Part shown: positions 1-22,243 of the stretch, in pieces | Position numbering within the stretch: the first letter of the stretch is position 1 | Layout of the letters: each line of letters starts with the position of its first letter | Virus record (IMG/VR): IMGVR_UViG_3300012931_000497 | Span: 1 to 29,751 of that record | Direction: 5' to 3' (one strand) | Source: a virus | DNA length: 29,751 nucleotides | The notes under the pieces: model-generated | Database searches by the model: none | Seen by the model: only the letters and a program-made list of their open reading frames with translations | What the model was told of the DNA's origin: nothing | Position numbers and translations under genes: made by a program

Positions 1-98
1 ATTAAAAAACTCCGCACTTCCCCAGTATTAGATACTTCATATAAACCTTCATATCCTTTAATAGGTTTCCATATTACATCGGCATTAAAAATCTCCAT
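1..98 (-). CDS. NUMOD4-type HNH homing endonuclease, N-terminal fragment
   Basis: Only the first 32 codons are in the window; the gene runs off the left edge. The start is the ATG at 98, preceded by a clear AGGAG ribosome site at about 105-109. The translated fragment contains the typical NUMOD4 signature: a Trp-Lys-Pro-Ile, then Gly-Tyr-Glu-Gly-Leu-Tyr-Glu-Val-Ser-Asn-Thr-Gly and a Val-Arg-Ser. NUMOD4 is a DNA-binding module found at the N terminus of many phage HNH homing endonucleases, so an HNH domain is expected beyond the edge, but it cannot be seen here. The start overlaps the 3' end of the sugar epimerase gene by 14 bases. This module differs from the zinc-finger HNH genes elsewhere in the window, so it is probably a separate homing lineage. 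Confidence 0.8.
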   Translation of the reverse strand, partial: MEIFNADVIWKPIKGYEGLYEVSNTGEVRSFL

Positions 99-1029
99 TT
101 GGTTTCTCCTTTAAGTAATTAGCGTTTGAATAGACTGGGTCATTAGTATCTACTATTCTTCCTTCTAGTATGGTCTTATGAATTTCTTTTATACCATCTT
201 CCAATGTAAACCAAGGTGTCCATCCGGTTGCAGCCATTCTGTCTGTCTTAACTTTATAATTTCTAAGATCCTCAAACTTCATGTCCTTGCAAACCACATT
301 TGATCCCGGCACCACATCCTGTATAGTTTCAGCTATTTCTTTTATAGTATAATTCTTATAGGCTAAATTATACAAACCAACCATATCTTTTTTTAGGCCA
401 TATTCAACTGCTGTAGATACATCCCTAACATGTAATAGGGGGCGCCATTGTTCGCCACCAGTAACAACAAGATCATGCTTATTGGTTGCTTTCAGAGTGA
501 GAATATTTGCTACCAAATCTAATCGCAATCTTGAAAACTCATCCCCCAGTCCAAATAAGGTTCCAAGTCTAAACACCAAATAGTCATCATGATTATTGAC
601 TATATATTGCTCAGCTTTTAGTTTGGTCTCCGCATATTTAGATTGTGGATTAGGTATCGCATCTTCATCTATTAATTCATGGTTTATTCCATAAACAGAA
701 CAGGTGGACATAAATACTATCTTACCATAATAGTTATCCACTAGCCACTTAGGGCATTCATAGTTTATTAGTTCTGTGAGTGGCGGATTGATAGCGCAAG
801 CCCCATCCCCAACTAAGGCCGCTAGCCATATAACTACATCATAATCATGCACTATTTTATTTAACTTTTCAAAATCCCTTATATCTCCGCGAATAAATTT
901 TACTTTTTTCAAAAAGCGCGTTTCATACATTAGATTATCATATACAGTGACATCATATCCCAACGCCCCTAAAAAGTCAGTCATATGACCACCTACGTAA
1001 CCACATCCACCTACTATTAATATCTTCAT
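85..1029 (-). CDS. NAD-dependent nucleotide-sugar epimerase/dehydratase (extended SDR)
   Basis: This is a 314-residue extended short-chain dehydrogenase/reductase of the GalE/RmlB type. Such enzymes act on sugar nucleotides in the cytoplasm (4-epimerisation, 4,6-dehydration or related oxidations). Visible signs are the N-terminal Rossmann glycine motif GGCGYVGG at residues 7-14, a Ser-rich STCSVYG strand at 108-114, and the catalytic YxxxK pair (Tyr132, Lys136). The length fits the family. The ATG at 1029 is preferred because it forms an ATGA overlap with the stop of the upstream glycosyltransferase and has AAAGG(TGG) upstream; an in-frame GTG at 1044 sits on that ribosome site and is less likely. 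It is the last complete gene of the sugar cassette. The exact substrate cannot be read from the sequence. Confidence 0.9.
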   Translation of the reverse strand: MKILIVGGCGYVGGHMTDFLGALGYDVTVYDNLMYETRFLKKVKFIRGDIRDFEKLNKIVHDYDVVIWLAALVGDGACAINPPLTELINYECPKWLVDNYYGKIVFMSTCSVYGINHELIDEDAIPNPQSKYAETKLKAEQYIVNNHDDYLVFRLGTLFGLGDEFSRLRLDLVANILTLKATNKHDLVVTGGEQWRPLLHVRDVSTAVEYGLKKDMVGLYNLAYKNYTIKEIAETIQDVVPGSNVVCKDMKFEDLRNYKVKTDRMAATGWTPWFTLEDGIKEIHKTILEGRIVDTNDPVYSNANYLKEKPNGDF

Positions 1030-1928
1030 ATTATACTTAGCCACCTTTCTTTACATGAATCTCTATCAAATTTACTATCTAACAAAAATTGGCGCGGAGA
1101 AAATTTCTCCTTATTATTTTTTACATACTCAATGCATTCTTCATAGTTGTTATTTTTTATTTTAAGACCCCATTCTCCACTGGGTATACCATATAATATA
1201 CCCACGTCGGTAGTGATTATTGGAAGTCCACAAGCGCCTGCTTCCACAGAAACCAGATGTAAAGTCTCAACCACTGAAGTGCATAACAACATGTCGCAAC
1301 TATTATATATTTTAACCAATGTTTTATGATCAATTTTATTAAATACCCTAACTCTAGGATGATCCATACTAAAATTATCCTTCATTACTAAACAAAAATT
1401 ATAATTTGTAGTATTTATTAAATCTTGTATGATATTAAATCCTTTAGGATAATTATTAGCGGCCCCTACAAATAAAATACTATTAGGTAATACATCAGGA
1501 TGATTCTCATTTGAGTGTTTAAATAACTCAAAATCAGATCCTATTGGAATAATTTCAATTTGACATTCAGTTATTTTGTTTTTATATTTTTGATATGTAT
1601 AATTAGAATTAAATACCGTAAGAGTACTATTATTACACACATCTATTTGTTGTTGATCACTCTCATAATAGTCTTGTAACAATGATATCTGCTTGCATGG
1701 TAAATGCATTGGTCTAAAAAATGTCGCATTTCTTATTATATACCTTGGGCGTTGTTTTGGAAGTAATTGCCAAAAATTTTGCTCTATTCTATCCGCCAAT
1801 ACATTATAATTTGTATATCCACCCATCTTATCTTCTAAATCAGGTAACCATTCCAATAGATCGTGCCAAAAAGTTTTAGTACCTGGGATACAAGTTAAAC
1901 AATCATTTACTAACCAACCAGTTTTCAT
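1026..1928 (-). CDS. GT4-like glycosyltransferase
   Basis: A 300-residue protein with a GT-B type C-terminal half. The segment around residues 150-165 (ILFVGAAN..PKG) resembles the start of the nucleotide-sugar binding domain. Residues 221-238 carry an E-x7-E motif (Glu221, Glu229) followed by Ala-Gly-Ala-Cys-Gly-Leu-Pro-Ile-Ile, which is typical of GT4 retaining glycosyltransferases. The protein is shorter than most GT4 enzymes (350-400 residues) and the N-terminal domain is reduced. The start forms an ATGA overlap with the stop of the methyltransferase gene, and its own stop overlaps the epimerase start in the same way, so the three are likely translationally coupled. Sugar donor and acceptor are unknown. 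Confidence 0.85.
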   Translation of the reverse strand: MKTGWLVNDCLTCIPGTKTFWHDLLEWLPDLEDKMGGYTNYNVLADRIEQNFWQLLPKQRPRYIIRNATFFRPMHLPCKQISLLQDYYESDQQQIDVCNNSTLTVFNSNYTYQKYKNKITECQIEIIPIGSDFELFKHSNENHPDVLPNSILFVGAANNYPKGFNIIQDLINTTNYNFCLVMKDNFSMDHPRVRVFNKIDHKTLVKIYNSCDMLLCTSVVETLHLVSVEAGACGLPIITTDVGILYGIPSGEWGLKIKNNNYEECIEYVKNNKEKFSPRQFLLDSKFDRDSCKERWLSII

Positions 1929-2422
1929 ATAAAGTTAACCACCCTTCTATTATTAAATTTCCTAACAAGTGTCAATCCCTCCGTCCCTATAGGCAAAGTA
2001 ATAAACATTGTATCAGTTCTACTTTTTAGATAATCATTTATACGATAACAATCACTGCAATAACCATCTTGTAAATACACTCTATCGGTTGGATCAGTAT
2101 CATGCAAAACTATTGTACCATTTCTATTAAGAATTTTGATAGTATTGTCTAAATCTCTTCTTACACTTTCATATCTATGATCAGCATCTATAAAAATTAT
2201 ATCAAAAGTCATACTATTCCTAGAAAAGAATTCATCAGTAGTCATTTGATAAAAAGTACCTACTTGTTTATCTCTTAGATCTTTTATATCTACCCCCACA
2301 CAATTTATTACATGTGGATATACTTGTTCAAATGTTTCTCCTACATATAAACCTAACTCTAAGTACGAAATACAACTAGTAGATTTGACTAACTGTACTA
2401 TGAAGGGGGTATGATTACTCAT
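1925..2422 (-). CDS. Class I SAM methyltransferase (Methyltransf_24-like)
   Basis: A 165-residue Rossmann-fold methyltransferase. Motif I is ELGLYVGET at residues 22-30, an acidic end of strand 2 is GVD at 43-45, and the sequence FIDADHRYE at 77-85 with HDTDP at 107-111 is characteristic of the Methyltransf_24 group. Members of this group are often found in sugar and polysaccharide gene clusters. It probably methylates a sugar or an oligosaccharide made by the neighbouring enzymes, but the acceptor is inferred only from context. The start overlaps the radical SAM stop (ATGA) and the stop overlaps the next glycosyltransferase start, so it sits inside a tightly coupled four-gene set. Confidence 0.85.
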   Translation of the reverse strand: MSNHTPFIVQLVKSTSCISYLELGLYVGETFEQVYPHVINCVGVDIKDLRDKQVGTFYQMTTDEFFSRNSMTFDIIFIDADHRYESVRRDLDNTIKILNRNGTIVLHDTDPTDRVYLQDGYCSDCYRINDYLKSRTDTMFITLPIGTEGLTLVRKFNNRRVVNFI

Positions 2423-3417
2423 ATAATTTCAAACACCTTTCCATTATTTTTTCTATAATAAAATATATCTGATAAATCCTCATTATTACAAATAATATTA
2501 TCTGTTTGTGTATAATTAGTAAAAATATCGTACTGCTTATTTATACCACCGCATATTCTTTTTATACCACAAGAAGCACAGACACCGACTTTGGATTCAA
2601 TTGTATTACTTATAGTCTCACCATGCGATTTATATGTAGCAATTGTTTTTGGAGTAATTGAATAATCCCACTCATATGGATCAAACATTACCTGCAAATC
2701 ATTACATACATTTTTACGCAGATCTTCTCTGATTCTACACATTGGGTAATACCTAACATTTACTCCTATACCATATTTTTCTAATATATCAATAGCATCA
2801 TTCAACAATGGTTCAACTATTCGCAAATTAGTTACAAAATTTAACGAATTCTCATTACCCGACCATTCACCATGAGGATTGAAATTAATAAAATTAACAA
2901 TTCTTGCTGGAAGATTGGATAGATAAGACGCTAACTCAGGAAGTTCAAAATAGTTCTGATTATTTATAACTGTATTAGTTCTAAAAGTCTTTCCATAAGA
3001 AAGAATACATTTAATACTTTTCTCCTGCACTTTTCTCGCGCCTTCTAAATCAACTGTAGTATCATGTGTTTTTTCTAACCCATGGAAAGATATCAAAAAA
3101 TCATCTATTCCAGCCTCCAAAATATCAGTTAATTTTCTTTCAGAGATAATGGCATTTGTATTTAAGCAAACCCTCATATCTTGTTGTTTAATATATTTAA
3201 TGATTTCTACGATACTAAGATGCATACTAGGCTCACCAGGACCTACTAAATCCACATAATTATTCCCAGCAGCTTTTGCAGACAAAATTGAATTTTTTAT
3301 ATCTTCTAATAGTAAATCATGTTTCTGTGGTTTATATTTATGATAACAAAAATTACAATGTATGTTACAATTCCACGTCACATCTATTCCACGTCTATGT
3401 GTAGGTATTAACTCCAT
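2419..3417 (-). CDS. Radical SAM enzyme with SPASM/twitch-like C-terminal cysteines
   Basis: A 332-residue radical S-adenosylmethionine protein. The [4Fe-4S]-SAM motif CxxxCxxC is at Cys17, Cys21 and Cys24, and the GPGEPS segment at 59-64 matches the SAM-binding GGE-type motif. A second set of cysteines (Cys227, Cys238, Cys280, Cys283, Cys289) near the C terminus resembles the auxiliary iron-sulfur cluster regions of SPASM or twitch proteins. Such enzymes start radical chemistry on peptides, sugars or cofactors; here the neighbours are glycosyltransferases, a methyltransferase and a sugar epimerase, so a sugar substrate is the simplest guess, but a peptide substrate is possible. The ribosome site AAGGAG lies six bases before the ATG. 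Radical SAM enzymes are uncommon inside phage sugar cassettes. Confidence 0.9.
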   Translation of the reverse strand: MELIPTHRRGIDVTWNCNIHCNFCYHKYKPQKHDLLLEDIKNSILSAKAAGNNYVDLVGPGEPSMHLSIVEIIKYIKQQDMRVCLNTNAIISERKLTDILEAGIDDFLISFHGLEKTHDTTVDLEGARKVQEKSIKCILSYGKTFRTNTVINNQNYFELPELASYLSNLPARIVNFINFNPHGEWSGNENSLNFVTNLRIVEPLLNDAIDILEKYGIGVNVRYYPMCRIREDLRKNVCNDLQVMFDPYEWDYSITPKTIATYKSHGETISNTIESKVGVCASCGIKRICGGINKQYDIFTNYTQTDNIICNNEDLSDIFYYRKNNGKVFEII

Positions 3418-3429
3418 TTATTTCTCCTT

Positions 3430-4116
3430 TTAATCAATATATTTATCATAATTACAAAACGTATTGCCGATATTATTAAATCCCGGTAACTGCTTAGCTA
3501 TAGCAGGTCTTATACAAAAAGAATTAAATTCTCTATATACTTTATATCCCCAAAAATTATCTATGGATCTATATGACTGCAAAGCATTATCTAATACGAA
3601 ATCATACACAGTATTTTTCACTAAGTAAGCATGCAAACAATACATAACCTCTATTTTAGAAAGATTATTTGTATAAGGAATTAATCCATCCTTTACATTT
3701 GGATATTCTAAATCGTTTGGATCTAAAAATCTATGATTACCACCAAAGTTAATAACATCCCAAGATACACTTTTCAACTGATCATAAGCAAATTCACACA
3801 TCACATCAAAATTATCAATAAAATATACGTCATCTTCAAATATCAAAACTGATTTTAGACCTTGTGTTTTAGCTTCTTCTATGACACCATAATGGCTAAA
3901 TTTATTACCATACCAACCAGTCATTTTAAAATTATCGGTGGATAATTTGTTTATATACCTAATTGGTATTTCAGAATCTACACCATAGGCTTCAAACACC
4001 TCATAATTATTATAACCAATAAGATCCATCTGATGTTTAAAACTATTCAATCTATCAAGTCTGGATGCTAAATTTATAACATATGATTTTTCAGCCAATT
4101 CTAAGAGCCTATTCAT
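3430..4116 (-). CDS. Glycosyltransferase family 25 (LPS galactosyltransferase/procollagen GT type)
   Basis: A 228-residue protein with the hallmarks of GT25: the N-terminal YVINLASRLDRL segment (residues 12-23) and SHYGVIEEA...SVLIFEDDVYF (74-99), where Glu94-Asp95-Asp96 is the metal/nucleotide-sugar motif. GT25 enzymes transfer galactose or glucose to oligosaccharides or to hydroxylysine in proteins. The ATG at 4116 is chosen because a perfect AGGAGG lies nine bases upstream; an in-frame GTG at 4125 has no room for a ribosome site. The start overlaps the 3' end of the upstream glycosyltransferase gene by 8 bases. Substrate not determinable. Confidence 0.88.
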   Translation of the reverse strand: MNRLLELAEKSYVINLASRLDRLNSFKHQMDLIGYNNYEVFEAYGVDSEIPIRYINKLSTDNFKMTGWYGNKFSHYGVIEEAKTQGLKSVLIFEDDVYFIDNFDVMCEFAYDQLKSVSWDVINFGGNHRFLDPNDLEYPNVKDGLIPYTNNLSKIEVMYCLHAYLVKNTVYDFVLDNALQSYRSIDNFWGYKVYREFNSFCIRPAIAKQLPGFNNIGNTFCNYDKYID

Positions 4117-4843
4117 CCTTCTCACCCTCCTGAATATGATATACTATAGAATCAAATACGGTTATATGTTTCATATTATATCGATCCTGTAATAACTGAA
4201 AATACCATGCATCACCGCTCATCACCACGCCACCCCTTAAAGATCCAGCGCATCCATCTGCGTAAATATTTCCCTCTGGATACATACCACTTTCTAAAAA
4301 TCTTTCTTTCTCAAACACGCAAGGCATAAATAGACCACCATCATTCCATGATTGTACTTTATTGGTATCTACGTAATCATACCAATCTACATAATTAATT
4401 TCTTTTGCAGTTTTACCAAAATTTTTATTACCAATAGCATATTTTCCGCTTAATAATTTACCACTTTCCACCAACCTACTGCATGGGATATTAATACCAT
4501 CGTGCGCTTTAAGTAGATTAGATAGCCAATCATCGCTAAACACCATATCCGAATTTACAAAGCAAATGTTATCATACGCACTTGTTTGACCAGCGTAATT
4601 CCAACATCTATACACTTTATTAAGATAATAATCCATTGGATTTTTATCATTATAAACCAAATACGGAATATTATAAGCTTTTAAAGCATCTAATACTTTT
4701 GGAGTGGCATCATTTGCCACAATACGAATACCTATATCCCAATTTTTTACTTTACAATAGTCCTTCTTTAATTCACTGACTATTAGATCTAAATAAGCTA
4801 CTGATTTATATATCAAAGATATTATTTCTATATTTTTTTTCAT
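4109..4843 (-). CDS. GT-A fold glycosyltransferase (GT2-like)
   Basis: A 244-residue protein that resembles family 2 (GT-A) glycosyltransferases: an N-terminal beta strand IEIISLIYKS, a nucleotide-binding IVANDAT at 41-47, and NICFVNSDMVFSDDWL at 92-107, where Ser98-Asp99 takes the place of the usual DxD and is followed by a second acidic pair. The C-terminal part has GG(V)VMSGDAWYFQLL, similar to the acceptor-side region in the family. A ribosome site AGGGGG precedes the ATG. It sits between the GT17 and GT25 genes, with 2 bases between it and the former. It is unclear which sugar it transfers. Confidence 0.8.
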   Translation of the reverse strand: MKKNIEIISLIYKSVAYLDLIVSELKKDYCKVKNWDIGIRIVANDATPKVLDALKAYNIPYLVYNDKNPMDYYLNKVYRCWNYAGQTSAYDNICFVNSDMVFSDDWLSNLLKAHDGINIPCSRLVESGKLLSGKYAIGNKNFGKTAKEINYVDWYDYVDTNKVQSWNDGGLFMPCVFEKERFLESGMYPEGNIYADGCAGSLRGGVVMSGDAWYFQLLQDRYNMKHITVFDSIVYHIQEGEKDE

Positions 4844-4845
4844 AG

Positions 4846-5631
4846 CTACCCCCTAAAATAAAAATCAGGATACTTATTGATAAACCAATTAAGGCAAGTT
4901 GGAGCCAAACCAGGCTGAGTTATATCTATAATACGCTTCTGTGCGTAAATATCTTTTCTATTCCACAAATCTTTTTGTGATACCATTTTCCTCTCAATTT
5001 CTTCCACGCTACCTACGTTATCTATTATCAAATGAGATTCAGCAATACTTTCTACCTTCTGGCGCACTCTTTCAGCGCCACCCATAAAACTATAGTGCCA
5101 CCCACCAGGTCTTAAGGGATTATATTCTGTACGAGCAAGATTACGTAAACTTTGTGGAGAGTCATATTGACCATAGGTGGCTATTATAGAACCAAACCAC
5201 AACGAATTCTGTATACAATTTACATAATAATAAAATAAATATTGATACATAGTCACTGGTTTATTTGAATCTAACACAGATCTAATAGTAGATGGATTAG
5301 GTATCTCATCTATATCAGATACAATAATTTTATCTCCATTTTTTGCGGCATGCAATCCCCGTGAAATACAATTTCTCTGAAAGTTTTCTGCTAACCATAT
5401 ATCATCACGTGAGTAGTCTGGTAAATCCTCAACCTTTACATAAACAATTCTATCTAAATAATCTTTAAATTTATCCTTGTGATGCTCAAATATAAATTCC
5501 TTTTTCTTACCAGTATGGGTTTTATTAGCCTCTACCAAAATAAAATAATCTACTAAATCGCCAAGTACATGAAGACGCAGATCTAATAATTCAATCTCAT
5601 TAAAAAATTTAAAGCAATCAAATATTTTCAT
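4846..5631 (-). CDS. Glycosyltransferase family 17 (beta-1,4-GlcNAc transferase type)
   Basis: A 261-residue protein matching the GT17 family. Key features are the N-terminal FFNEIELLDLRLHVLGDLVD segment (residues 9-28), LVEANKTHTGK (32-42), and VSDIDEIPNP (104-113) with the Asp106-Ile-Asp108 metal motif, followed by a Trp/Tyr-rich acceptor region and WHYSFMGG. Known GT17 members add a beta-1,4-linked GlcNAc (bisecting GlcNAc in eukaryotes); bacterial and phage members occur in polysaccharide clusters. It follows a WecB-type epimerase gene that would work on UDP-GlcNAc, which fits an N-acetylhexosamine-containing product. It is separated from the epimerase stop by one base and has AAAGGAAG upstream of the ATG. 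Confidence 0.9.
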   Translation of the reverse strand: MKIFDCFKFFNEIELLDLRLHVLGDLVDYFILVEANKTHTGKKKEFIFEHHKDKFKDYLDRIVYVKVEDLPDYSRDDIWLAENFQRNCISRGLHAAKNGDKIIVSDIDEIPNPSTIRSVLDSNKPVTMYQYLFYYYVNCIQNSLWFGSIIATYGQYDSPQSLRNLARTEYNPLRPGGWHYSFMGGAERVRQKVESIAESHLIIDNVGSVEEIERKMVSQKDLWNRKDIYAQKRIIDITQPGLAPTCLNWFINKYPDFYFRG

Positions 5632-5632
5632 A

Positions 5633-6697
5633 CTATAATTCTTCCTTTAGAATTTTTATAATTTGATCAGATGTAGTACCATCACCTAACCATGAAGGAT
5701 CAATATTAGGAGCATTCATTAACCAATTACGGGCATCCTCAATTGAATTACCATCCATTATATTGACCATATAAGAACAATTAGCCCAAACAGACTCAGG
5801 TCTTTCTGTATAGTCTCTAGGGACTAATACCGGCGTATTTAATAAAGCAGGTTCTTCCTGGGCAGTGCCACTATCTGATATCATAAATAAACAATCATAT
5901 TGAGCCTTCAAGAAATCTCTATAAGACATTAGATCTATAAACTCTACGTCATAAGTATTGATTCCAAACTCTTTAATAGCGGACATAGTTCTACCAAATT
6001 TAAGCATTCTTACTGGAACATTTGTTAGTCCCGACCATAAATTTGCTAGCACAAATAGATTAGTCATCCTCTCTTTGTATTTAAAATTCTCTGGTCTATG
6101 AATATCCATCAGAATAAAATCCAAGGTCTTAGGTACCATCTTAAGATAAGGCACAAACATACTACAAACTTCGACTATTGTATTTCCAACTACATAAATA
6201 TTTTCAGGTGGAAGATTCTCTTCAACCAAATTGAGCTTATAATTCTCATGATAAACAAAATGTAAATCTGTGCAATGATCGCATACAGTTCTATTTATTT
6301 CTTCAAGCATACGCTTATCATGACTTCGCATCCCAGCTTCAATATGTCCGACGCAGTACCCCTCTTTCTTCAGAACCGGAGCTGCCATAACTGAATTAGA
6401 ATCTCCGAGAAATAAAACTATATCAGGTTTGATATTTTTTTTTCTAAATAATTCTATGGTTTTTATAGATACCTCAGCGGTCTGATGAAAGTGTTCTTTT
6501 CCCACACCACCTATACCTAAATTATAATCAGGTTTTCTTATCTCCAATTCTTTAAAAAATACATCAGACATCATTTCATCATAATGTTGACCTGTGTGAA
6601 TAAGAATATGATTAAACTCTTTATCAAGTTTCTTAAATATTTCAGACATGCGAATAAAATCAGGACGAATTCCGGTAATTGTAACTACTGTTTTCAT
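5633..6697 (-). CDS. wecB: UDP-N-acetylglucosamine 2-epimerase (non-hydrolysing)
   Basis: A 354-residue WecB/MnaA-type enzyme, interconverting UDP-GlcNAc and UDP-ManNAc. Family motifs appear in order: TGIRPDF (8-14), HTGQHYD (34-40), GDSNS (98-102), HIEAGMRS (118-125), HRPEN (200-204), SDSGTAQEE (274-282) and TERPE (298-302). The family consensus SDSGGxQEE is SDSGTAQEE here, so the second glycine is replaced by threonine; otherwise catalytic positions look intact. The ATG at 6697 is preferred over an in-frame GTG at 6709, because it gives an ATGA overlap with the upstream GT gene and GGGGGA serves as its ribosome site. It would provide ManNAc for the glycan made by the surrounding transferases. 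Length is normal (about 375 in bacteria). Confidence 0.95.
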   Translation of the reverse strand: MKTVVTITGIRPDFIRMSEIFKKLDKEFNHILIHTGQHYDEMMSDVFFKELEIRKPDYNLGIGGVGKEHFHQTAEVSIKTIELFRKKNIKPDIVLFLGDSNSVMAAPVLKKEGYCVGHIEAGMRSHDKRMLEEINRTVCDHCTDLHFVYHENYKLNLVEENLPPENIYVVGNTIVEVCSMFVPYLKMVPKTLDFILMDIHRPENFKYKERMTNLFVLANLWSGLTNVPVRMLKFGRTMSAIKEFGINTYDVEFIDLMSYRDFLKAQYDCLFMISDSGTAQEEPALLNTPVLVPRDYTERPESVWANCSYMVNIMDGNSIEDARNWLMNAPNIDPSWLGDGTTSDQIIKILKEEL

Positions 6698-7455
6698 AAA
6701 ATCCCCCACTCTCTTCCAACATTTCTAACTATTATATTCTCTCGATCGTTGTATAACTTCTGATTGTAATCATATCTCGGTTTTCTCTCAGCAGACATAG
6801 GTAATCTTGGATGCCATAAATGAACCACCATTGCATTTGTCTCTTTATATTCACAACCATTATGAACTAGTCGCCTAACAAAATCAGTATCATCAAAGTC
6901 CGTTCCTGTGAAGTCCTCATCGTACCCTCCGATATCTATGAACGATTCCCTACGCATAGCCATAAAAAATGGAAACCTCACATTATCAAGTTTTGGTTGT
7001 CGCACATAATCCAATGTGCCAACACTTTCACAATCTGATTCTAAATGGCGCAAAAATAAACCATTATCGTCTTTTGCTTGTGGAATAGAGATAATTTTAT
7101 CTGAGTCATCCTGTTCAAAAATTGCGCTAATTAATTGGATACTGTTATTCATATGAAACATTTCAGCGCAACATAAAATAATAATATCGCCATCACTTTG
7201 CTTAACACCAATATTTATAGCATAACCAGGAATTCGCCATACCAGTCCATTTCTGTTTCGCTGACCAGTAAAAAAATACTTTATATTTAATTTCTCTTTG
7301 TACGAACTACAAAGTTTTGTAGTATCATCTTCAATACCATCATTTAGTATTATAATCTCATATGCATGCGGAATAACCTGCCTTGACAAAGACCATAAAT
7401 TCCATCTCAATAAATGGCTTCGCATATACGAAGGCACAATAATAGAAACCTTCAT
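6694..7455 (-). CDS. GT2-family glycosyltransferase with atypical metal motif
   Basis: A 253-residue GT-A enzyme: N-terminal MKVSIIVPSYMR, nucleotide-binding ILNDGIEDDT (36-45), and a C-terminal GGYDEDFTGTDFDDTDFVRRL-like stretch (split here only by description; it spans roughly residues 176-196) that matches the acceptor/catalytic region of GT2 and GT27-like enzymes. Where a DxD is expected after Ser-Asp-Gly-Asp-Ile-Ile, the protein has ILCCAEMFH (93-101), so the classical second aspartate is missing and a Glu98 followed by His101 is found. Related sugar transferases with an 'xxE..H' form at this position exist, so it need not be inactive. Ribosome site GGAGG lies five bases before the ATG, which directly follows the upstream gene's TAA. 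Confidence 0.85.
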   Translation of the reverse strand: MKVSIIVPSYMRSHLLRWNLWSLSRQVIPHAYEIIILNDGIEDDTTKLCSSYKEKLNIKYFFTGQRNRNGLVWRIPGYAINIGVKQSDGDIIILCCAEMFHMNNSIQLISAIFEQDDSDKIISIPQAKDDNGLFLRHLESDCESVGTLDYVRQPKLDNVRFPFFMAMRRESFIDIGGYDEDFTGTDFDDTDFVRRLVHNGCEYKETNAMVVHLWHPRLPMSAERKPRYDYNQKLYNDRENIIVRNVGREWGIL

Positions 7456-8337
7456 TTATACCTCCAATTTTAAAGATCCATCCCAACCATCCAAGCGCGG
7501 ATCAAAATTAAAATAGTCAGTATAAGTTCCATCCAGCTTTGTCAGAGTCTCAGGATCAAATATATGCGACTCTAAAAAATCTATTCGCTTATCAAAAGTA
7601 TCTATACCCGATGGATAATGTCCTCGACGATTAAATCCATAAAATCCTATATGCAAAAGTCTATAGCATAAAGATACATAAGAGGATATGCCGTGATTAA
7701 ATGAATTATAATCAATAAGTCTGCGCATCAACCCATCCCAGTCTAAATGTGCATGTTGATTTCCTTTTTTTATTGAGTAAGTGGCATTGGGATTATCGGC
7801 ATTCATTGAATTAACTTTATCAATGGTTGGTATCCAATTTTGATAATATGAAGGAGTTGCATAAGCACTCATATAATTAATAAAAAAATCTTTATTTATT
7901 ATAATTCCTGGGCCACAACTGTAATCAGTTTTTTTAAGAATATCCGGGTCGCCCATAGCAGAATAACCCCAAGGAGCTATTACGGAATATCCACCATCTT
8001 TAACCAAATCATTTGCCTTTTTAACAAATTCAAAAAAAGTTTTATGTAAAATTATATCATCTTCCATATTAATAATATAATTTTCAGCTTTCTCACTAGA
8101 AAATTTAAGACCCTCCATTATATTAGCACATACAAAATGGCGGATACCTCTTTTTATTGCCATAAATTTATATGGATAATCTTTGATCACATCAAGGCAT
8201 TTAGGATTATGACCTACATCTATAACAAAAATAGTAAGATAGTCATCATCAAAATATTCTCTCGCTTTTTGCTCATATTTAAGGGATAAATAAAGCATTT
8301 CCGGTTTGTCAAATACAGTTCTTAATAAGATATTCAT
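7456..8337 (-). CDS. GT-A type glycosyltransferase with EDD motif
   Basis: A 293-residue protein. It starts MNILLRTVFDKPE, and has IINMEDDIIL at 88-97, where Glu92-Asp93-Asp94 is a DxD-like metal motif as in GT2/GT13-like GT-A enzymes. The middle part has CGPGIIINKDFF and a Trp-rich stretch HLDWDGLMRR, with a final aromatic-rich C terminus. No closer family can be assigned from the sequence alone. It is the first gene after the promoter-like element and 15-bp tandem repeat at 8352-8406, with GAGGAG close to the ATG, so it may head the distal sugar operon. It is not certain that it is a glycosyltransferase of known type, but the fold signs and neighbours agree. Confidence 0.75.
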   Translation of the reverse strand: MNILLRTVFDKPEMLYLSLKYEQKAREYFDDDYLTIFVIDVGHNPKCLDVIKDYPYKFMAIKRGIRHFVCANIMEGLKFSSEKAENYIINMEDDIILHKTFFEFVKKANDLVKDGGYSVIAPWGYSAMGDPDILKKTDYSCGPGIIINKDFFINYMSAYATPSYYQNWIPTIDKVNSMNADNPNATYSIKKGNQHAHLDWDGLMRRLIDYNSFNHGISSYVSLCYRLLHIGFYGFNRRGHYPSGIDTFDKRIDFLESHIFDPETLTKLDGTYTDYFNFDPRLDGWDGSLKLEV

Positions 8338-8351
8338 AATAACTCCTCAAA

Positions 8352-8381
8352 GTAGATATTTATATTGTAGATATTTATATT
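8352..8381. repeat. Perfect 15-bp tandem duplication
   Basis: On the minus strand AATATAAATATCTAC occurs twice, back to back (positions 8381-8367 and 8366-8352), with no mismatch. Each copy contains TATAAATA, the form of the T4 late-promoter -10 element. The first copy overlaps the TATAAT hexamer at 8379-8384. It lies in the 66-base gap between two glycosyltransferase genes, where a transcript leader would be. It could be a protein-binding site or a doubled promoter element; this is inference. Confidence 0.9.
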
Positions 8382-8406
8382 ATAGAATAAAACATAGACT
8401 TTGCTA
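8379..8406 (-). promoter_or_regulatory. Promoter-like element TAGCAA-N16-TATAAT (copy 1)
   Basis: On the minus strand TATCTAGCAA ends at 8401; after 16 bases the perfect -10 hexamer TATAAT is at 8384-8379. The same arrangement, with the same 16-base spacer and further matches (ATTC before the -10 and ATA after), is found before the clamp operon at 22206-22233. The -35-like TAGCAA overlaps the TAG stop codon of the upstream glycosyltransferase gene. The -35 is far from the TTGACA consensus, so an activator or a phage-modified polymerase may be needed. Strength and start site are not known. Confidence 0.6.
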
Positions 8407-9519
8407 GATAGATTTTATAACATCTATCATCTTTCTACCAACAGCCTCTATGGACAACTCAGTAGATATAAATTCTCTTAGTTTAATACCTTTTTCCGCA
8501 GCTTCTTGTCTATTATTATACACATGTTTCATTTTATTGATAGCATCCAAACAGTCCGGTTCAGCCCACATTTGGTCTACTCTATACCACGGACTCCAAG
8601 GCATACCAGATACGGGAGCCCACGTATAATTAACCGTGTACCCTCTATCGTCATTTAAATACTCTAATACACCACCCATACCGGTAGTTATAACCGGCTT
8701 ACCACAGGCACCGGCTTCAAATGAAGTCAATCCAAAACCTTCGCCCCTATTCAAATTTATAAAGCAATCACCAAATTTATGTAAACCGAAAATATCCTTA
8801 CGACTCGGCATATCTAATAATAAATAAAGCGGTGGATACCAATCTGCAGGAGACACCTCTTTTAATTTCTTAATAGTAGATCTAATAGCTTCTTTTTCGC
8901 TATCCGAAAAATTAGATCTGTAGGTCTGCAAAATAAGTGCCACATTCTCTTTATTTGGAAAAGCATGCCAGTATGATTTTATTAAAGCCATTGGATTCTT
9001 GCGCTCAGTAAATTGAAATATAGAGTAAAACTTATACGCATCAGGCTTAACCCCTTGAATTTCACTCACACTAAGCGCATCTATTTCATCTATATCTATT
9101 CCATGTGGGACACAATAAACAGGTTTTGTAACCCCCGAATCTTTAAAAACATCTACATTCCATTGACAACTACACATCACGGCATCTGCCTGATTTATCC
9201 AGCCAGGCCAACTTGGGTGAAGTCTACTTGTCTCCCATACAGTATAACCAATGTTGAATTTTCCAGGCTCAAACTTTTGAGCCCAAAATTCTGGTGTAAG
9301 TTCTGTTATGACTATGTTATAATCAATGTCTTTATTTATAAGACTCATTAAAATTTCACCATTTTTACCAAGGTCAGGACCGTCTTTTTCGAAAGCAACC
9401 GGAGCTAACGTAATAGGTATGCCTATTTTATGCAAAGCCAATACATAAGAACGAGCGGCTTGTGCATAACCACTTGAATCAAAAAATGGACCAACATATT
9501 TTATTCCTCGTATCTCCAT
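8404..9519 (-). CDS. GT4-like glycosyltransferase (GT-B fold)
   Basis: A 371-residue glycosyltransferase with the GT4 C-terminal domain: PHGIDIDE (138-145) after the linker, a phosphate-region FQFTERKNP (168-176), and E-x7-E in RGEGFGLTSFEAGACGKPVITT (Glu260, Glu268). The N-terminal GPFFDSSGYAQAARSYV is the usual glycine-rich acceptor-side start of such proteins. Length fits the family. The ribosome site AAGGAGG is four bases before the ATG. It shows the same family signature as the adjacent 423-residue protein, and the two may be old duplicates that diverged. The gene ends with TAG, which lies in the promoter-like element of the next unit. Substrate unknown. Confidence 0.9.
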   Translation of the reverse strand: MEIRGIKYVGPFFDSSGYAQAARSYVLALHKIGIPITLAPVAFEKDGPDLGKNGEILMSLINKDIDYNIVITELTPEFWAQKFEPGKFNIGYTVWETSRLHPSWPGWINQADAVMCSCQWNVDVFKDSGVTKPVYCVPHGIDIDEIDALSVSEIQGVKPDAYKFYSIFQFTERKNPMALIKSYWHAFPNKENVALILQTYRSNFSDSEKEAIRSTIKKLKEVSPADWYPPLYLLLDMPSRKDIFGLHKFGDCFINLNRGEGFGLTSFEAGACGKPVITTGMGGVLEYLNDDRGYTVNYTWAPVSGMPWSPWYRVDQMWAEPDCLDAINKMKHVYNNRQEAAEKGIKLREFISTELSIEAVGRKMIDVIKSI

Positions 9520-9528
9520 AACCCCTCC

Positions 9529-10800
9529 TTAAAATTCTTCGGCAGTAACTTTGTTGATGCCCATATCTAAAACAGTATCTTTACCTAAAGTCACTACAGT
9601 TTCATCAAATAGCTTAATCCACATATTACCTATAGCACCATCCCAACCCATGCTCCTAGTAACCCATTTATAAGCATTCTCAGCCTTTTGTTTTGCTTCT
9701 TGTGGATTGTTATAAATATGAACAAGTTTTGCTACCATATCATCTACATCCACTAATGGGCGCATAACCTCGTTATCATGAGGAAGTGTTGTCCAAAGAC
9801 TCGGGCTACTACCGCTATTCATCAAATAACCAATATCATCAGTTATAAACTCCTCCATCGCAGTATTTCGTGGCATCAATGTGGGTGCCTTGGCAGCCAT
9901 AGCTTCTATCCAATGTAAACCAAAACCCTCACCTAAAGTCGTACTTACCACAACGTCGCTTGCATTATACAAAGCGTTGACTATCTCCCTTGGATATCCC
10001 CGATTTGGTCCAAAATTTTGAGGGAATATAACATCCTTCGTAATATCCAAATCCATCTGTCTACAAAGTTCTGGCAAATCCCATCCTTGATCTTTCATAG
10101 CCATAAGTAGAAATAGAATTGAGTCGGGTACTTGCTTTCTAAATTCTTTAAAAGCTTGAAGCGTTCTTGGAATATCTTTTCTTTGTTGATTTCTATTAAA
10201 ATTAGAAATAATAAATTTATCAGATTGACCCCTAAAAAAATCTCGTCTGAAAGCATCTATTTCAGCTTTAGGTAAAGGATAAAATTCTTTCAAGTTAACA
10301 CCATGAGGAATAATTTTCATATCAGTTCTTTCCGGAAGAACTTTCAGCGCAATCTCTTTTGCAAATTCAGCATAAGCCACCAAAACATCAGCGTCATTTA
10401 TATTTTTTCCCCATGCAGGCTTAAGTGTAGAGTCTACAGGAAAGTAAAGAATTGATTTAAATGGTTTCATTCGCTGTGTTTTCAAATGTGGTAATAACGT
10501 AGGTAAAAAGTCCATAATAAATGAATCTTGTAGAAGAAATAAAATATCAAAATCCATTTTTGGAATCATGTTTACTGCCTTTTGGCGTCCATATGGATCT
10601 TGGCTTCCAGTACCGGCTGGCCAAATCCTATAAGGATAGTTGTGTGGATCTCCCCAGTAATTTATACCAAAAACATCAATATCATATCTACCTGTATTAT
10701 ATAGTGCTGCAAATATATTCCTTGAAACCATGGCAAATCCTGTTGCACAACTCGGAGAATCACAGTATGCCATAACTTTTATCTTCTTTGAATCTTTCAT
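9529..10800 (-). CDS. GT4-like glycosyltransferase (GT-B fold)
   Basis: A 423-residue GT-B protein. N-terminal VMAYCDSPSCATGFAMVSRN (residues 9-28) is the glycine-containing acceptor domain start; IIPHGVNLKEFYP (163-175) marks the domain linker; SNFNRNQQRKDIPR (199-212) is the donor-phosphate region; and LGEGFGLHWIEAMAAKAPTL contains E-x7-E (Glu291, Glu299). All are hallmarks of GT4 retaining enzymes. The ATG overlaps the stop of the HNH gene upstream (ATGA), with AAGGAG eight bases before, so the start is secure. It is the first sugar gene after the replication block and is probably on the same transcript. The last ~30 residues extend beyond the common GT4 core. Confidence 0.9.
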   Translation of the reverse strand: MKDSKKIKVMAYCDSPSCATGFAMVSRNIFAALYNTGRYDIDVFGINYWGDPHNYPYRIWPAGTGSQDPYGRQKAVNMIPKMDFDILFLLQDSFIMDFLPTLLPHLKTQRMKPFKSILYFPVDSTLKPAWGKNINDADVLVAYAEFAKEIALKVLPERTDMKIIPHGVNLKEFYPLPKAEIDAFRRDFFRGQSDKFIISNFNRNQQRKDIPRTLQAFKEFRKQVPDSILFLLMAMKDQGWDLPELCRQMDLDITKDVIFPQNFGPNRGYPREIVNALYNASDVVVSTTLGEGFGLHWIEAMAAKAPTLMPRNTAMEEFITDDIGYLMNSGSSPSLWTTLPHDNEVMRPLVDVDDMVAKLVHIYNNPQEAKQKAENAYKWVTRSMGWDGAIGNMWIKLFDETVVTLGKDTVLDMGINKVTAEEF

Positions 10801-11510
10801 AAATTAATCTCCTTTTTATTATAATTATATCCATACTTATTACTCATAATAGTTCTATACAGATCAATGTAGTAATCAGTATTTTTATTAGATCTTGCGT
10901 TACAACTTCTACATAAAGTAATTAAATTATCTTCACCACAATTCTTTTTGTTATAATCAATATGATGAACAGTTAATTGACTGGCCAAACCATCTCCATG
11001 CCAACAACTTGGGTTTTGACAGATATACCCATCTCGTTCTTTTATAGACTTTCTAATATCAGTGGTCTTCCATACAACATCATATGGCTCAAAAGAAACC
11101 CCACCCCTCCATTGATGATTTCCACTTCTACGCATTTTAATCCCTTTACAAATTGAGCATCTACAATTACCATAATACCAATCAGACCACATGATTACAT
11201 TCCTATGCCCTTCTGGACAAATATATCCTAATTTCTGTTTTTGATTAATATATTCTTTCGTAATAAGGGTATATCCTTCTTTCCTAAACTGCTCTTTTAT
11301 AAAATCTATATCAAATTTAACATTTCTTGCACACCTACCGCACCTACATCCACTTTGCCAATGGTCCCATGTCGAATAGTGTATATGACCATTTGGACAA
11401 ATAAAATCTAATCTCCCCTTACTATTAATGTATTTTTTAGAAAGTAACTTATACCCCTCTTTTTCAAATTGGCTTTTTACAAAACCATATGAATGTCTAA
11501 CGCCTATCAT
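10797..11510 (-). CDS. HNH homing endonuclease with two zinc-finger repeats (HNH-1)
   Basis: A 237-residue free-standing endonuclease. Residues 10-60 and 70-121 are two related modules with a CPxGH..., W..G.C.C..C pattern, which look like zinc-binding DNA-recognition fingers. Then NHQWRGGVSFEPYD (131-144) leads into the HNH nuclease at about 157-210: ERDGYICQNPSCW, LTVHHIDYNKKNCGEDNLITLCRSCN, with Cys164/Cys169/Cys200/Cys203 as structural zinc ligands and His182-His183 as the catalytic pair. The C-terminal half is very close to HNH-2 and HNH-3 in this window. Its start directly follows the nuclease gene stop and its stop overlaps the next start (ATGA), so it is inserted at a gene junction without breaking either neighbour. 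Confidence 0.93.
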   Translation of the reverse strand: MIGVRHSYGFVKSQFEKEGYKLLSKKYINSKGRLDFICPNGHIHYSTWDHWQSGCRCGRCARNVKFDIDFIKEQFRKEGYTLITKEYINQKQKLGYICPEGHRNVIMWSDWYYGNCRCSICKGIKMRRSGNHQWRGGVSFEPYDVVWKTTDIRKSIKERDGYICQNPSCWHGDGLASQLTVHHIDYNKKNCGEDNLITLCRSCNARSNKNTDYYIDLYRTIMSNKYGYNYNKKEINL

Positions 11511-11511
11511 A

Positions 11512-12693
11512 TTATTTTCCTTTGATAGTTTTATATGCCAAAAAAGGCGATGTATATCCTTTTTGAGCAGTGCTCATTATTATAGGTTTTATTTCAGGAT
11601 GCTCGCGCATATATTCATCCACAGATTTCTTTCCCATGCTCACCATATTAAGAAAATCCTGTTTGGGTACATGTTCAAATATAGTCCTGGCATCATAAGA
11701 AGTCATAGGCGTCTGCTTAATGTATATCTGCTTATTATCCCCGACCAAATCTTTTTCCTCTGTTCTTATCTTTTCCAATATATGAGTTTTCAATTGAGTT
11801 TCATACTCATAAAGAATTCTGGATCTATTTTTAACATTAACATACTCTTGAACCAATTCTTCATCGGTGTATTCGTTTAAGTTTTTTTTAAAGATGCTCC
11901 TCTCCAACACAGAATCTTTATACGCATTACAAACATCCCTATGGTCGCACCAATTACACATATCATTGATAGTAGGAACAGCCTTATTCTCCTCCAGTTT
12001 CATCATCTCGGTATAAACTGCAAGTAAATATTTTGCAAAGGTACGTCTTTCTTTTAAAGTTCTATAGGTGTAAAGTGGTTCATTACGTAAATAATCTAAT
12101 GATAATATTATTCTTTTATAATCAGGAAATTTAATACTTGCCACCAAATCATACATTGAAAGCTGAGTATCTGATTTCAACTCACTTGATGTCATCTGAT
12201 ATTTAGATGTCTTATAGTCAACTACTAGTAAAGTTTCAGGATTAAGTTCTATTACTTTATCCATAGCACCTATAACAGTAACGCCATCAGGTGTAGTAGT
12301 TCTAAAATTAGTCTCGATACTAATTATCTTCCCACTCCCAAATTCATTAATTCTACTCAAAACCATCTCAATACCATCATCATATATTGACATGTTCTGA
12401 ATACCCTCTTGTGCCGCTATTTTGCGATATTCTTCTTTAACTTTCTTAATATCGTTAGCTGTTAGCATTTCTTTGTCTTTATAAATTTCTCCTGCTTTAG
12501 CTAATGCGCCATGCACGGCAATACCGAGCTTGAACGAAACATTAGATTTACGAGGATATTTTAATACGTATGTACACCAATACTTATATTTACAAGTTAA
12601 GTATGTAGACATTCTAGTGGCGGACATCAAAATCTCTTTTTGAGCTTTTGGTAATTCTTCTGCTTCTATTGCTAATTCTATTTCTTCACTCAT
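11512..12693 (-). CDS. RecB/Cas4-type PD-(D/E)XK exonuclease with probable Fe-S cluster
   Basis: A 393-residue nuclease of the PDDEXK_1 group. Motifs in order: LGIAVHGAL (His61), GAMDKV (Asp145), VVDYKTSK (Asp159, Lys161), and QLSMYDL (Gln177, Tyr181). Cys34 together with Cys246, Cys249 and Cys255 (CNWCDHRDVC) matches the AddB/Cas4 four-cysteine iron-sulfur arrangement. In phages such proteins resect or process DNA ends during replication and recombination. The C-terminal ~110 residues after the cluster are not recognised. The ATG overlaps the RuvC-type gene by 8 bases (ATGAGTGA) and has AAGGAG upstream, suggesting coupling with that junction-resolving enzyme. Confidence 0.9.
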   Translation of the reverse strand: MSEEIELAIEAEELPKAQKEILMSATRMSTYLTCKYKYWCTYVLKYPRKSNVSFKLGIAVHGALAKAGEIYKDKEMLTANDIKKVKEEYRKIAAQEGIQNMSIYDDGIEMVLSRINEFGSGKIISIETNFRTTTPDGVTVIGAMDKVIELNPETLLVVDYKTSKYQMTSSELKSDTQLSMYDLVASIKFPDYKRIILSLDYLRNEPLYTYRTLKERRTFAKYLLAVYTEMMKLEENKAVPTINDMCNWCDHRDVCNAYKDSVLERSIFKKNLNEYTDEELVQEYVNVKNRSRILYEYETQLKTHILEKIRTEEKDLVGDNKQIYIKQTPMTSYDARTIFEHVPKQDFLNMVSMGKKSVDEYMREHPEIKPIIMSTAQKGYTSPFLAYKTIKGK

Positions 12694-13171
12694 TAGACTT
12701 CTCCTTTTCTAAAAAATATAATCCTTGCAAAATCGAATCTGTTATATCGTTATCCTTCTCAAAAGTACTATTTTTAAATTTTGATTTATATCTATTCACT
12801 ACATATTTGTAGGCATCTTCTTTTTTCTTTACTTCAAAATAACTGCGCACTGTATTAGGACTTATAAATATTGGCTCTACACTTAGAAAAAGGTAAGAAC
12901 CTATCTGTAGTATCCCTATTAGTTGCGAAAGCATCTTCAGTGTCTTAACATTTTTCATATACGTTTCTTCTATAATCACAACTGACGGTTTATATTTAGT
13001 CAGCAATTGCTCAACATCTTTCTTAAAGATAAGTAATTTTTGACAAGTAGAATAATCTTTTATAGAATTGCGTGTTATGAGTCCAAACTTCTTTAACTTA
13101 CCATCTTCAAAATAAGCCCATCCGGTTGATACAGAAGATACATCAAACGACAATACCTTATTCATCGGCAT
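12686..13171 (-). CDS. RuvC-like Holliday-junction endonuclease
   Basis: A 161-residue RNase H-fold nuclease. The acidic residues expected for RuvC are visible: Asp10 in VLSFDVSS, Glu68/Glu69 in VVIIEETY, and Asp140/Asp142/Asp145 in EKDNDITDSILQGL. The length (about 160-175) fits RuvC and phage resolvases. It would cut branched DNA during recombination-dependent replication and packaging. The start overlaps the zinc-ribbon gene by 14 bases. A GGGAG lies four bases before the ATG at 13171 and ten before the in-frame ATG at 13165 (MNKVLSFD), so either start is possible and the true protein may be two residues shorter. Confidence 0.88.
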   Translation of the reverse strand: MPMNKVLSFDVSSVSTGWAYFEDGKLKKFGLITRNSIKDYSTCQKLLIFKKDVEQLLTKYKPSVVIIEETYMKNVKTLKMLSQLIGILQIGSYLFLSVEPIFISPNTVRSYFEVKKKEDAYKYVVNRYKSKFKNSTFEKDNDITDSILQGLYFLEKEKSNE

Positions 13172-13550
13172 CTATCTCCCATGAAAATCCACAAACAGTG
13201 CATTCATATTTGCCTGGCGTAAGTTCTACTGCTAATTCTTCGCACTTCAAACATTTATGTATCAGGCTTTCCATTGGCTTACCTATATCCTTAGGCTCAA
13301 ATAAATTATGCTCATCAAAAAATTGTGTGATATCCTCTAGTAAAGAAGAAACCTCCTCAATATTTATTTTATTGCCATCTAAAAATAAATCCCCAGCCAT
13401 TCTATAAGAATATCCACATGTACATGAAATATATTTAACCCGAATTATTTCGCCACAAGAACACGGAATCTCATCCACAGTTATAATGGATGCTGTTTTC
13501 TTACCACAATCTCTACAAACTATCAAATCATCTAAACCTTCTAATTCCAT
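13158..13550 (-). CDS. Multi-zinc-ribbon protein of unknown function
   Basis: A 130-residue small protein with ten cysteines in paired form: Cys12/Cys15, Cys30/Cys32, Cys43/Cys45, and Cys100/Cys103 with Cys117/Cys120. The last four make a convincing C-terminal zinc ribbon (CLKC...ECTVCGFSWE). The first six suggest one or two more metal sites. I do not recognise the family. It could be a nucleic-acid-binding replication or transcription factor, by position between the primase-linked gene and the resolvase, but that is inference. AAGGAG lies seven bases before the ATG, which overlaps no gene and directly follows the previous stop. Confidence 0.75.
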   Translation of the reverse strand: MELEGLDDLIVCRDCGKKTASIITVDEIPCSCGEIIRVKYISCTCGYSYRMAGDLFLDGNKINIEEVSSLLEDITQFFDEHNLFEPKDIGKPMESLIHKCLKCEELAVELTPGKYECTVCGFSWEIDADE

Positions 13551-13551
13551 A

Positions 13552-13926
13552 TTAAGACTCCTTTTCTTCTTTAATCATTTGAATAATATTACCAACTATC
13601 TCTACCACATCTTCCTTCACAATAAATACAACAGGTACAAAAGCTTGATCGTTTGCCAAATCTGGATATTGTGCTGTCGCAAATAAAATCTTGGACAAAG
13701 AAGGTATATACAACACATCACCCCTCTCTTCTTCAACATACTTTAATACTTCAAACTCTCCGTCAGTGTCTTTAAAGAATTTTGGATCCAAATCTTTGTA
13801 ACTACCCCTACGTGGTATAGTGATTACAAAATCTTCTTTAAACACTTTGAATGCATAGTGACGTGCTGGTAGCATCATCATCGTAGGAGTCCCTACTACT
13901 TTTACAAATTCGCTATTTATTTCCAT
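13552..13926 (-). CDS. Unidentified small protein in the replication operon
   Basis: A 124-residue protein (from the ATG at 13926) with no family I recognise. The sequence is mixed alpha/beta in appearance, has no Cys, no signal peptide and no membrane segment; it has a run of three Met near residue 16 (TPTMMMLPAR), a central acidic stretch and an acidic C-terminal helix (IIQMIKEEKES). A strong GGAGG five bases before this ATG makes it the better start; an ATG at 13938 has the GGAGG inside its own coding sequence and would need another site. It is between primase and the zinc-ribbon gene with only single-base gaps or short overlaps, so it probably acts in DNA replication or its control. Confidence 0.7.
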   Translation of the reverse strand: MEINSEFVKVVGTPTMMMLPARHYAFKVFKEDFVITIPRRGSYKDLDPKFFKDTDGEFEVLKYVEEERGDVLYIPSLSKILFATAQYPDLANDQAFVPVVFIVKEDVVEIVGNIIQMIKEEKES

Positions 13927-13939
13927 AATGTCCTCCATT

Positions 13940-17302: not shown

Positions 17303-17767
17303 TTATAATCGGCGCTCCTCTTTAAGATACCGCATTTCCTGCTCCCTGCGTGTTAATTCCCGCTTAAAACTTGACAAAAGTTCCAGTAAATACTTCTCTC
17401 TATTCTCAACAAGAGCCAGTTCCTGTTCCAATACTTCTATGCCATGCTCTACTTGTTTCAATTCAGGTAAAGAATCTATTACTTTACGTCGCTTATCATT
17501 TTTTGTTTTGCCTTTTATTTCTGATTTATCTACATATAAATCAACAATATTTCTTTTCTCCATAAGTTCTACGCGTGTCTTATTCACTTGTGAACCAAAG
17601 TATATTAGAAATTGCGAAAGACCTATGATAAATTGACTAATAGTAATAGATGACGTGAATTCAAGATCCCTAACATTGAAAGCAAATATCTCGTCCATAA
17701 TAGATTCATTTTTTGGCATCTTATCCAGCATTAACTCCATTGATCTTTTCTTAAGATATTCTTCCAC
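17303..17767 (-). CDS. Coiled-coil protein, possible UvsY-like recombination mediator
   Basis: A 154-residue charged, helical protein. The N-terminal half has a hydrophobic helical stretch (SITISQFIIGLSQFLIYFGS, about residues 40-59), then a basic segment KSEIKGKTKNDKRRK and a long heptad-like Glu/Leu/Lys coiled coil from about 98 to 150. Size, all-helical character and position between RecA and the helicase are like UvsY, the T4 mediator that loads the RecA homologue UvsX on single-stranded DNA. There is no clear catalytic motif, and I cannot confirm homology by eye. The start is GTG in a TAGTG overlap with HNH-3, with AAGGGGG upstream as ribosome site. Confidence 0.6.
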   Translation of the reverse strand: MEEYLKKRSMELMLDKMPKNESIMDEIFAFNVRDLEFTSSITISQFIIGLSQFLIYFGSQVNKTRVELMEKRNIVDLYVDKSEIKGKTKNDKRRKVIDSLPELKQVEHGIEVLEQELALVENREKYLLELLSSFKRELTRREQEMRYLKEERRL

Positions 17768-19252: not shown

Positions 19253-19255
19253 AGA

Positions 19256-20900: not shown

Positions 20901-20903
20901 AAA

Positions 20904-22233: not shown

Positions 22234-22243
22234 GATAAAAAAT

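Follow-up and report, generated by a model that had tools for sequence, protein, structure and literature searches.

A 2023 study by Freeman is said, in a paper that cites it (PMC12619734), to propose that glycosyltransferases (GTs) encoded by mycobacteriophages decorate virion proteins; to our knowledge, virion glycosylation in these phages involves few GTs and no large sugar-nucleotide island. The glycan clusters of giant viruses comprise virus-encoded cytosolic GTs, sugar-nucleotide enzymes and methyltransferases and differ between clades (PMC9614988). The moraphages, metagenomic jumbo phages with DnaJ genes, have four core GT orthogroups and variable genomic islands, which their authors reported while leaving the island content open (PMC12619734). 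Here we analyse a run of twelve sugar-enzyme genes (g1 to g12) in the virus record IMGVR_UViG_3300012931_000497, positions 1 to 29,751; this whole 29,751-base stretch is called the window. The run appears to be one allele of a glycan-biosynthesis island that keeps a fixed position in an uncultured jumbo-phage lineage, behind a conserved GT pair, GT4a (g12) and GT4b (g11).

The giant-virus clusters, similar to the phage locus in their enzyme types, belong to eukaryotic viruses, have no gene order in common with it, and act on acceptors shown to be capsid and fibrils (PMC9614988). The moraphages, similar in genome class, core GTs and islands, are described with a family B polymerase (PMC12619734), whereas the relatives studied here, compared with that description, carry a PolA-type polymerase, a clamp and a clamp loader. 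Bacterial O-antigen and capsule loci likewise place exchangeable sugar genes in a fixed locus with conserved flanks, and have a submodule of WecB, GT17-g6 and GT4c in common with the phage locus. In contrast to those loci, no flippase, polymerase, ABC exporter or lipid-linked initiating phosphoglycosyl transferase appears here among the matches listed for 96 island open reading frames (ORFs) or in a scan for transmembrane (TM) segments. Earlier work has described GTs of phages, clusters of glycan genes in large viruses, and core GTs among jumbo phages; what is new, as far as the literature was searched, is a fixed, exchangeable glycan island behind a GT pair invaded by putative inteins, within a replication block.

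The twelve ORFs lie side by side on the minus strand at 85-10800 and are almost gapless, with junctions of -19 to +12 bp and a sole exception, a 66-bp gap at 8338-8403 (Table 1). They encode eight GTs, a WecB-type epimerase, a sugar-nucleotide short-chain dehydrogenase/reductase (SDR), a radical S-adenosylmethionine (SAM) enzyme and a methyltransferase. Chance is excluded as the source of this run by the E-values of the family matches together with the retention of the same genes in other phages. The original prediction had counted eleven consecutive genes; the unbroken order stands, the number is twelve, as in its own list, and the families it named are borne out by family matches and, for g6 and g10, by models with GT-A folds. 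Its single cassette, on the other hand, is in fact two parts, visible from relatives and not from the window alone: the GT4 pair are core genes of the lineage, and the other ten genes form an exchangeable island. The gene set of the window is probably incomplete, and the locus larger than first described, because the contig ends within it, cutting a NUMOD4-like frame, and the island of the nearest relative has three genes beyond the SDR. No tRNA genes are detected in the window, and no TM segments are predicted in the twelve proteins.

When WecB, DnaB, GT4a and the radical SAM enzyme are used as queries against viral contigs, 57 loci are retrieved, and certain contigs contribute more than one, overlapping, piece to this number. 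The order clamp-g26-RecA-g24-g23-g21-DnaB-primase-g17-g16-RuvC-PDDEXK-GT4a-GT4b is kept down to about 44% DnaB identity, with occasional insertions or losses. Since its longest members reach 234-238 kb, the lineage is one of jumbo phages. GT4a is present in 8/8 distinct contigs that were found through DnaB and reach at least 500 bases past PDDEXK, and GT4b in 7/7 that reach at least 2 kb past it; these contigs were not selected for GT4a. Across the lineage GT4b sits immediately behind GT4a, or behind one or two inserted ORFs. The pair are thus core genes that follow the replication block. Both match GT4-like families (9e-10 for g12 and 4e-8 for g11) and PHROG 2170, ‘glycosyltransferase’. For both profiles the best solved-structure match is B736L of chlorovirus NY-2A (GT4a 1e-22, GT4b 3.6e-16), ahead of next-best matches at 5e-10 and 9e-8, respectively; B736L binds GDP-mannose (PMC9614988). 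GT4a finds no mycobacteriophage match.

The pair is also the site of unusual insertions. Fourteen intein-like in-frame insertions occur in nine relatives at five sites, two in GT4a and three in GT4b, and the EX7E catalytic motif of both proteins is among these sites. The insertions start with Cys or Ser, carry a LAGLIDADG-like middle and finish with HN, GN or SN, followed by C, S or T; these features were judged by eye, and the inteins are putative. Inteins usually occupy indispensable proteins, which supports an important role of the GT4 pair, and the insertions point to its unusually strong conservation. Judged from titles and counts, the literature gives only incidental mentions of inteins in GTs. 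One relative (L055) has five intein-like insertions over three neighbouring genes, one of them within a ThyX-like gene.

The island keeps its place while its content changes. The order GT4b - island - clamp loader - PolA - (dUTPase) - ribonucleotide reductase (RNR) holds in 8/8 contigs that reach both sides, which amount to seven independent islands because G002 and G003 are near duplicates. Direct coordinates give island sizes of 12.0 kb (G001), 6.5 kb (G002), 7.1 kb (G003), 13.7 kb (G004 and G018) and 21.9 kb (G021), and combined loci give about 15.4 kb (G007) and 9.8 kb (G008). The listed non-overlapping island ORFs of at least 100 aa are all on one strand. In the six islands with direct coordinates a gene of 166-173 aa directly precedes the clamp loader; the last island gene in G004 resembles KdsC-type phosphatases, at scores under the curated cut-offs.

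The DnaB of the window is 64% identical to that of both L030/G018 and L046/G004, and its GT4a is 72% and 77% identical, respectively. The window island nevertheless has 8/10 genes in common with G018 (43-72% identity) vs none at 40% or above with G004. In the DnaB tree the window groups with L030, L029, L046, L031 and L036 (support 97/96) and L045 falls far outside, yet the distant L045/G009 still has g9, g7, g6, g2 and g3 in common with the window at 48-66%. Islands are therefore exchanged between phages, as an equal DnaB distance goes with eight shared genes or none and five genes recur in a distant phage. The original prediction had proposed comparing phages to see if the set travels as a unit, and per-gene identities and the DnaB tree show that it does. 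Parts of the set extend beyond the lineage. In phages L002-L009, where a search without a positive control detects no GT4a, relatives of g8, g6 and g2 occur in similar order wherever the piece is long enough, and some also have relatives of g7, g3 or g1. Two bacterial contigs from metagenome-assembled genomes cluster WecB, CapD/PseB-like and RmlD-like genes, a GT17-g6 fusion and GT4c, so that the WecB/GT17-g6/GT4c submodule has a counterpart in cellular polysaccharide loci.

Within the window, the island begins with g10, whose family is found in 12 loci of the lineage, more than any other island family. Neither g10 nor g6 has a Pfam match, and predicted folds were used because their sequence profiles reached no solved structure. 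The AlphaFold2 models (mean pLDDT 91.2 for g10 and 70.9 for g6) match GT-A transferases; that of g10 is nearest N-acetylglucosaminyltransferases I and II, with a TM-score of ~0.5 that indicates similarity at fold level only. The g6 protein finds no match in cultured phages, and its counterpart is fused to GT17 in the two bacterial loci. The match of g9 to a GtrB-like PHROG is weak and partial. The g8 epimerase scores 212.5 bits against TIGR00236 (wecB), narrowly above the 210.15 cut-off, and conserves the active-site motifs in an alignment with 4neq. No relative of g5 is present in the fetched loci. The radical SAM enzyme g4 carries a CxxxCxxC motif and an additional C-terminal Cys cluster; its relatives come from a single viral locus, with none of the other cassette genes nearby. 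The nearest solved structure of g1 is PDB 6vo6, which we take to be Cj1427 of C. jejuni. In the remodelling of GDP-heptose, Cj1427 serves as the C4-dehydrogenase, after which a C3/C5-epimerase and a C4-reductase act (PMC10680097), and the G018 island may follow a pathway logic of this type. In that island, which resembles the window's most, GT4c is followed by genes for a hexapeptide acyltransferase, a PIG-L deacetylase, a methyltransferase and an SDR (70% identical to g1), and these by a dTDP_sugar_isom cupin, an RmlD-type reductase and a HAD-like gene that has no Pfam match. The contents of other islands include an HldE-type heptose kinase (341.4 bits, slightly under the 345 cut-off) and a weaker adenylyltransferase match, as well as GT9, WecB, deacetylases, NeuD- and LpxD-like acyltransferases, DegT aminotransferases, sulfotransferases and Gfo/Idh/MocA enzymes.

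The motif CTAGCAAA-N12-TTCTATAAT, promoter-like in form, occurs twice in the window, against an average of 0.15 hits in shuffled windows. The same motif is seen at the GT4b/island junction of L030 and ahead of the clamp loader in G018 and G021. L046 and L013 have it ahead of the ThyA-like gene with which the operon starts, and L016 has it with one mismatch. It was not found at the GT4b junction of islands other than those of the window and L030, and in G004 and G021 the island starts ~10-15 bp behind GT4b without it. The motif combines a TATAAT box with a non-standard upstream box and recalls activator-dependent middle promoters. Generic scans for sigma-70 promoters and terminators perform no better than in shuffled sequence. 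The island is probably expressed together with the replication genes, and in the window probably not by read-through alone, because the motif stands at its junction with GT4b. The transcriptional fusion of cassette and replication genes that had been proposed thus survives in part, with a likely separate start for the island.

On balance, we lean towards a methylated glycan of variable structure that is made in the cytosol and carried by a virion component. GT4a and GT4b would place the first sugars on an acceptor common to all these phages. The WecB-type g8 would make UDP-N-acetylmannosamine (UDP-ManNAc) or a related sugar, and g1, perhaps with the radical SAM enzyme, would further remodel nucleotide sugars. 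The island, from g10 to g1 and probably including genes past the contig end, would extend and methylate the chain in the host cytosol, using soluble GTs. A virion protein would be the likeliest acceptor, giving particles with a common linkage and a variable, serotype-like outer glycan that may mask or vary their surface. The original prediction had likewise suggested that the genes may make a complex, methylated glycan and had noted enzymes in excess of simple DNA glucosylation; the gene content supports both, with methylation as probable, and ManNAc, also suggested, is plausible given the WecB-type enzyme.

In Tetrasphaera phage TJE1 and Synechococcus phage S-CBS4 a GT4a relative adjoins terminase, portal and head genes, which supports a virion target, as does the similarity to the virus GT B736L. 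Phage-encoded GTs without membrane components, as found here, are what a virion-protein glycosylation system is expected to have, and the island variability is that expected of an exposed structure, though none of these points is decisive. Several observations weigh on the other side. Location and the shared promoter-like motif link the genes to replication and not to late virion genes, the GT4a relative in phage S-EIV1 adjoins a primase, and the acceptor of B736L itself is unresolved (PMC9614988). The phage is also uncultured. The protein g30 (25025-28477, 1150 aa), encoded upstream of the replication operon, contains 25.9% Ser+Thr and g28 (SPRY) 23.9%; g30, together with g28, is a candidate O-glycan acceptor. 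A bolder form of the virion reading, possible although we hold it with some doubt, is a true serotype locus. The invariant pair would prime one conserved virion protein, and whole glycan programmes of ManNAc, heptose, aminosugar or sulfate type would be swapped at one set position within the replication block, so that the particle surface diversifies like bacterial O-antigens. The pair would then be so indispensable that inteins have settled in its catalytic motifs, a pattern also seen in polymerases and ribonucleotide reductases.

DNA hypermodification is a fairly unlikely alternative, in which, once the DNA has been replicated, GT4a and GT4b would attach a sugar to a hydroxymethylated base and the island enzymes would extend it, evading restriction and CRISPR. 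As in T4-type DNA glucosylation, tandem phage GTs, recalling the alpha- and beta-GT of T4, lie near replication genes: they adjoin primase, DnaB, clamp loader, polymerase, dUTPase and RNR and share the promoter-like motif with them. Viral GTs that add diverse glycans to DNA are reportedly described by Pyle in 2024, according to a paper citing that work (PMC12619734). Many relatives, moreover, have a gene of the thymidylate synthase (TS) family that separates GT4a from GT4b or stands at the start of the operon. This link to a hydroxymethylase looked strong at first and weakened later, because the same slot holds ThyX or ThyX-like genes elsewhere, fitting a plain supply of dTMP, and nothing in the window. 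The ThyA-like, ThyX and ThyX-like genes replace each other between GT4a and GT4b, with the ThyA-like gene alternatively at the operon start; the ThyA-like genes of G004, G008 and G009 could be TS or hydroxymethylase. The two longest relatives, G001 and G002, whose contigs may be incomplete, have both GT4a and GT4b but no PF00303 enzyme. A search of 12 records for a Tet/JBP oxygenase, run without a positive control, gives no match. The additional sugar enzymes, ten or more and accompanied by acyl- and sulfotransferases, go beyond what is known of sugars on DNA, and the twelve proteins have predicted isoelectric points of 5.3-6.4.

Modification of the host envelope is improbable in our estimate. 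The enzymes would then alter lipopolysaccharide or capsule during infection and block superinfection, as might be suggested by the counterparts of g8-g7-g6-g2 in bacterial polysaccharide loci and by the heptose-kinase and GT9 (heptosyltransferase) families, typical of lipopolysaccharide, in other islands. GtrABC-type conversion, however, involves a GtrA flippase, a GtrB-type enzyme and a multi-TM Gtr, and no such protein, nor a flippase, polymerase or phosphoglycosyl-transferase-like membrane protein, was found; among 132 ORFs that come behind GT4b in relatives, eight carry a single marginal TM segment and none carries more. The GT4 pair is also invariant although the islands, and probably the hosts, differ between phages, and no evidence was found that the enzymes act on the host envelope only. 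Two unrelated functions, the pair modifying one target (e.g. DNA or a replication protein) and an island parked behind it modifying another, seem the least probable arrangement. The motif does divide pair from island in the window and L030, and the phages in which GT4a was not detected carry similar sugar genes, but the island comes directly behind the pair in every contig examined, with no motif in the short GT4b-island spacers of G004 and G021.

Table 1 Features of the window and of related loci.
Feature	Position	Strand	Basis or remark
Cut reading frame ADVIWKPIKGYEGLYEVSNTGEVRSFL	1..84	-	NUMOD4-like start of homing endonuclease; NUMOD4 recognised by eye
g1, SDR sugar-nucleotide epimerase/dehydrogenase	85..1044	-	Epimerase SDR 7e-31
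g2, GT4c glycosyltransferase	1026..1928	-	GT4-like 6e-11; PHROG 2170
g3, SAM methyltransferase	1925..2422	-	Methyltransf_24 9e-11
g4, radical SAM enzyme	2419..3417	-	Radical_SAM 7e-14
g5, GT25 glycosyltransferase	3430..4125	-	GT25 match 8e-10
g6, GT-A fold glycosyltransferase	4109..4843	-	no Pfam family; predicted structure
g7, GT17 glycosyltransferase	4846..5631	-	GT17 match 1e-26
g8, non-hydrolysing UDP-GlcNAc 2-epimerase (WecB type)	5633..6709	-	Epimerase_2 3e-68
g9, GT2 glycosyltransferase	6694..7455	-	GT2 match 4e-15
g10, GT-A fold glycosyltransferase, first island gene	7456..8337	-	predicted structure
Promoter-like motif, GT4b/island junction	8379..8407	-
g11 GT4b, second core GT4 glycosyltransferase	8404..9519	-	family match, profile
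g12 GT4a, core GT-B/GT4 glycosyltransferase	9529..10800	-	intact EX7E motif (E291, E299)
g13, free-standing HNH endonuclease between PDDEXK and GT4a	10797..11510	-	mobile, outside pathway
Left flank: PDDEXK exonuclease, RuvC, primase, DnaB, RecA, sliding clamp, small genes	11512..22034	-
Promoter-like motif ahead of clamp/replication operon	22206..22234	-
Further motif positions	L030:11921, L101:7519, L103:4938(-), L046:265, L013:1, L016:4451
GT4a with intein-like insertions	L046:10001-12448, L050:9941-12421, L052:9944-12496, L054:9944-12520, L055:9959-12964
GT4b with intein-like insertions	L031:11303-13513, L032:11296-13503, L045:12170-14353, L048:12072-14312, L052:13147-16743, L055:14699-17980
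Thymidylate-synthase-type genes (ThyA-like, ThyX, divergent ThyX-like)	L048:11275-12072, L040:11504-12325, L022:17553-18131, L043:11335-11955, L046:330-983

The window has three free-standing HNH endonuclease genes (10797-11510, 16400-17302 and 17767-18654), which together with the NUMOD4-like frame break up the replication/glycan run; in relatives, genes of this kind are found at different junctions. A DnaJ-type chaperone gene (L043:6106-6867; family in 24 loci) lies in the replication block of many relatives and is absent from the window. The major head protein of the lineage is 22% identical to that of Bacillus phage G, with no other match among cultured phages. This protein (L066:2885-3958, equal to G001 22885-23958) reaches 84-85% identity between relatives, compared with a median of 40-46% for the other proteins that they share.

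Glycans on phage virions have been described for few phages in culture. In this lineage, core glycosyltransferases and variable islands, as reported for moraphages, are joined in one locus (cf. PMC12619734). The lineage would yield a short list of enzymes whose acceptor is directly testable, and a fixed, exchangeable locus with conserved starter enzymes would show that phages diversify their sugars by cassette exchange, as bacteria do.

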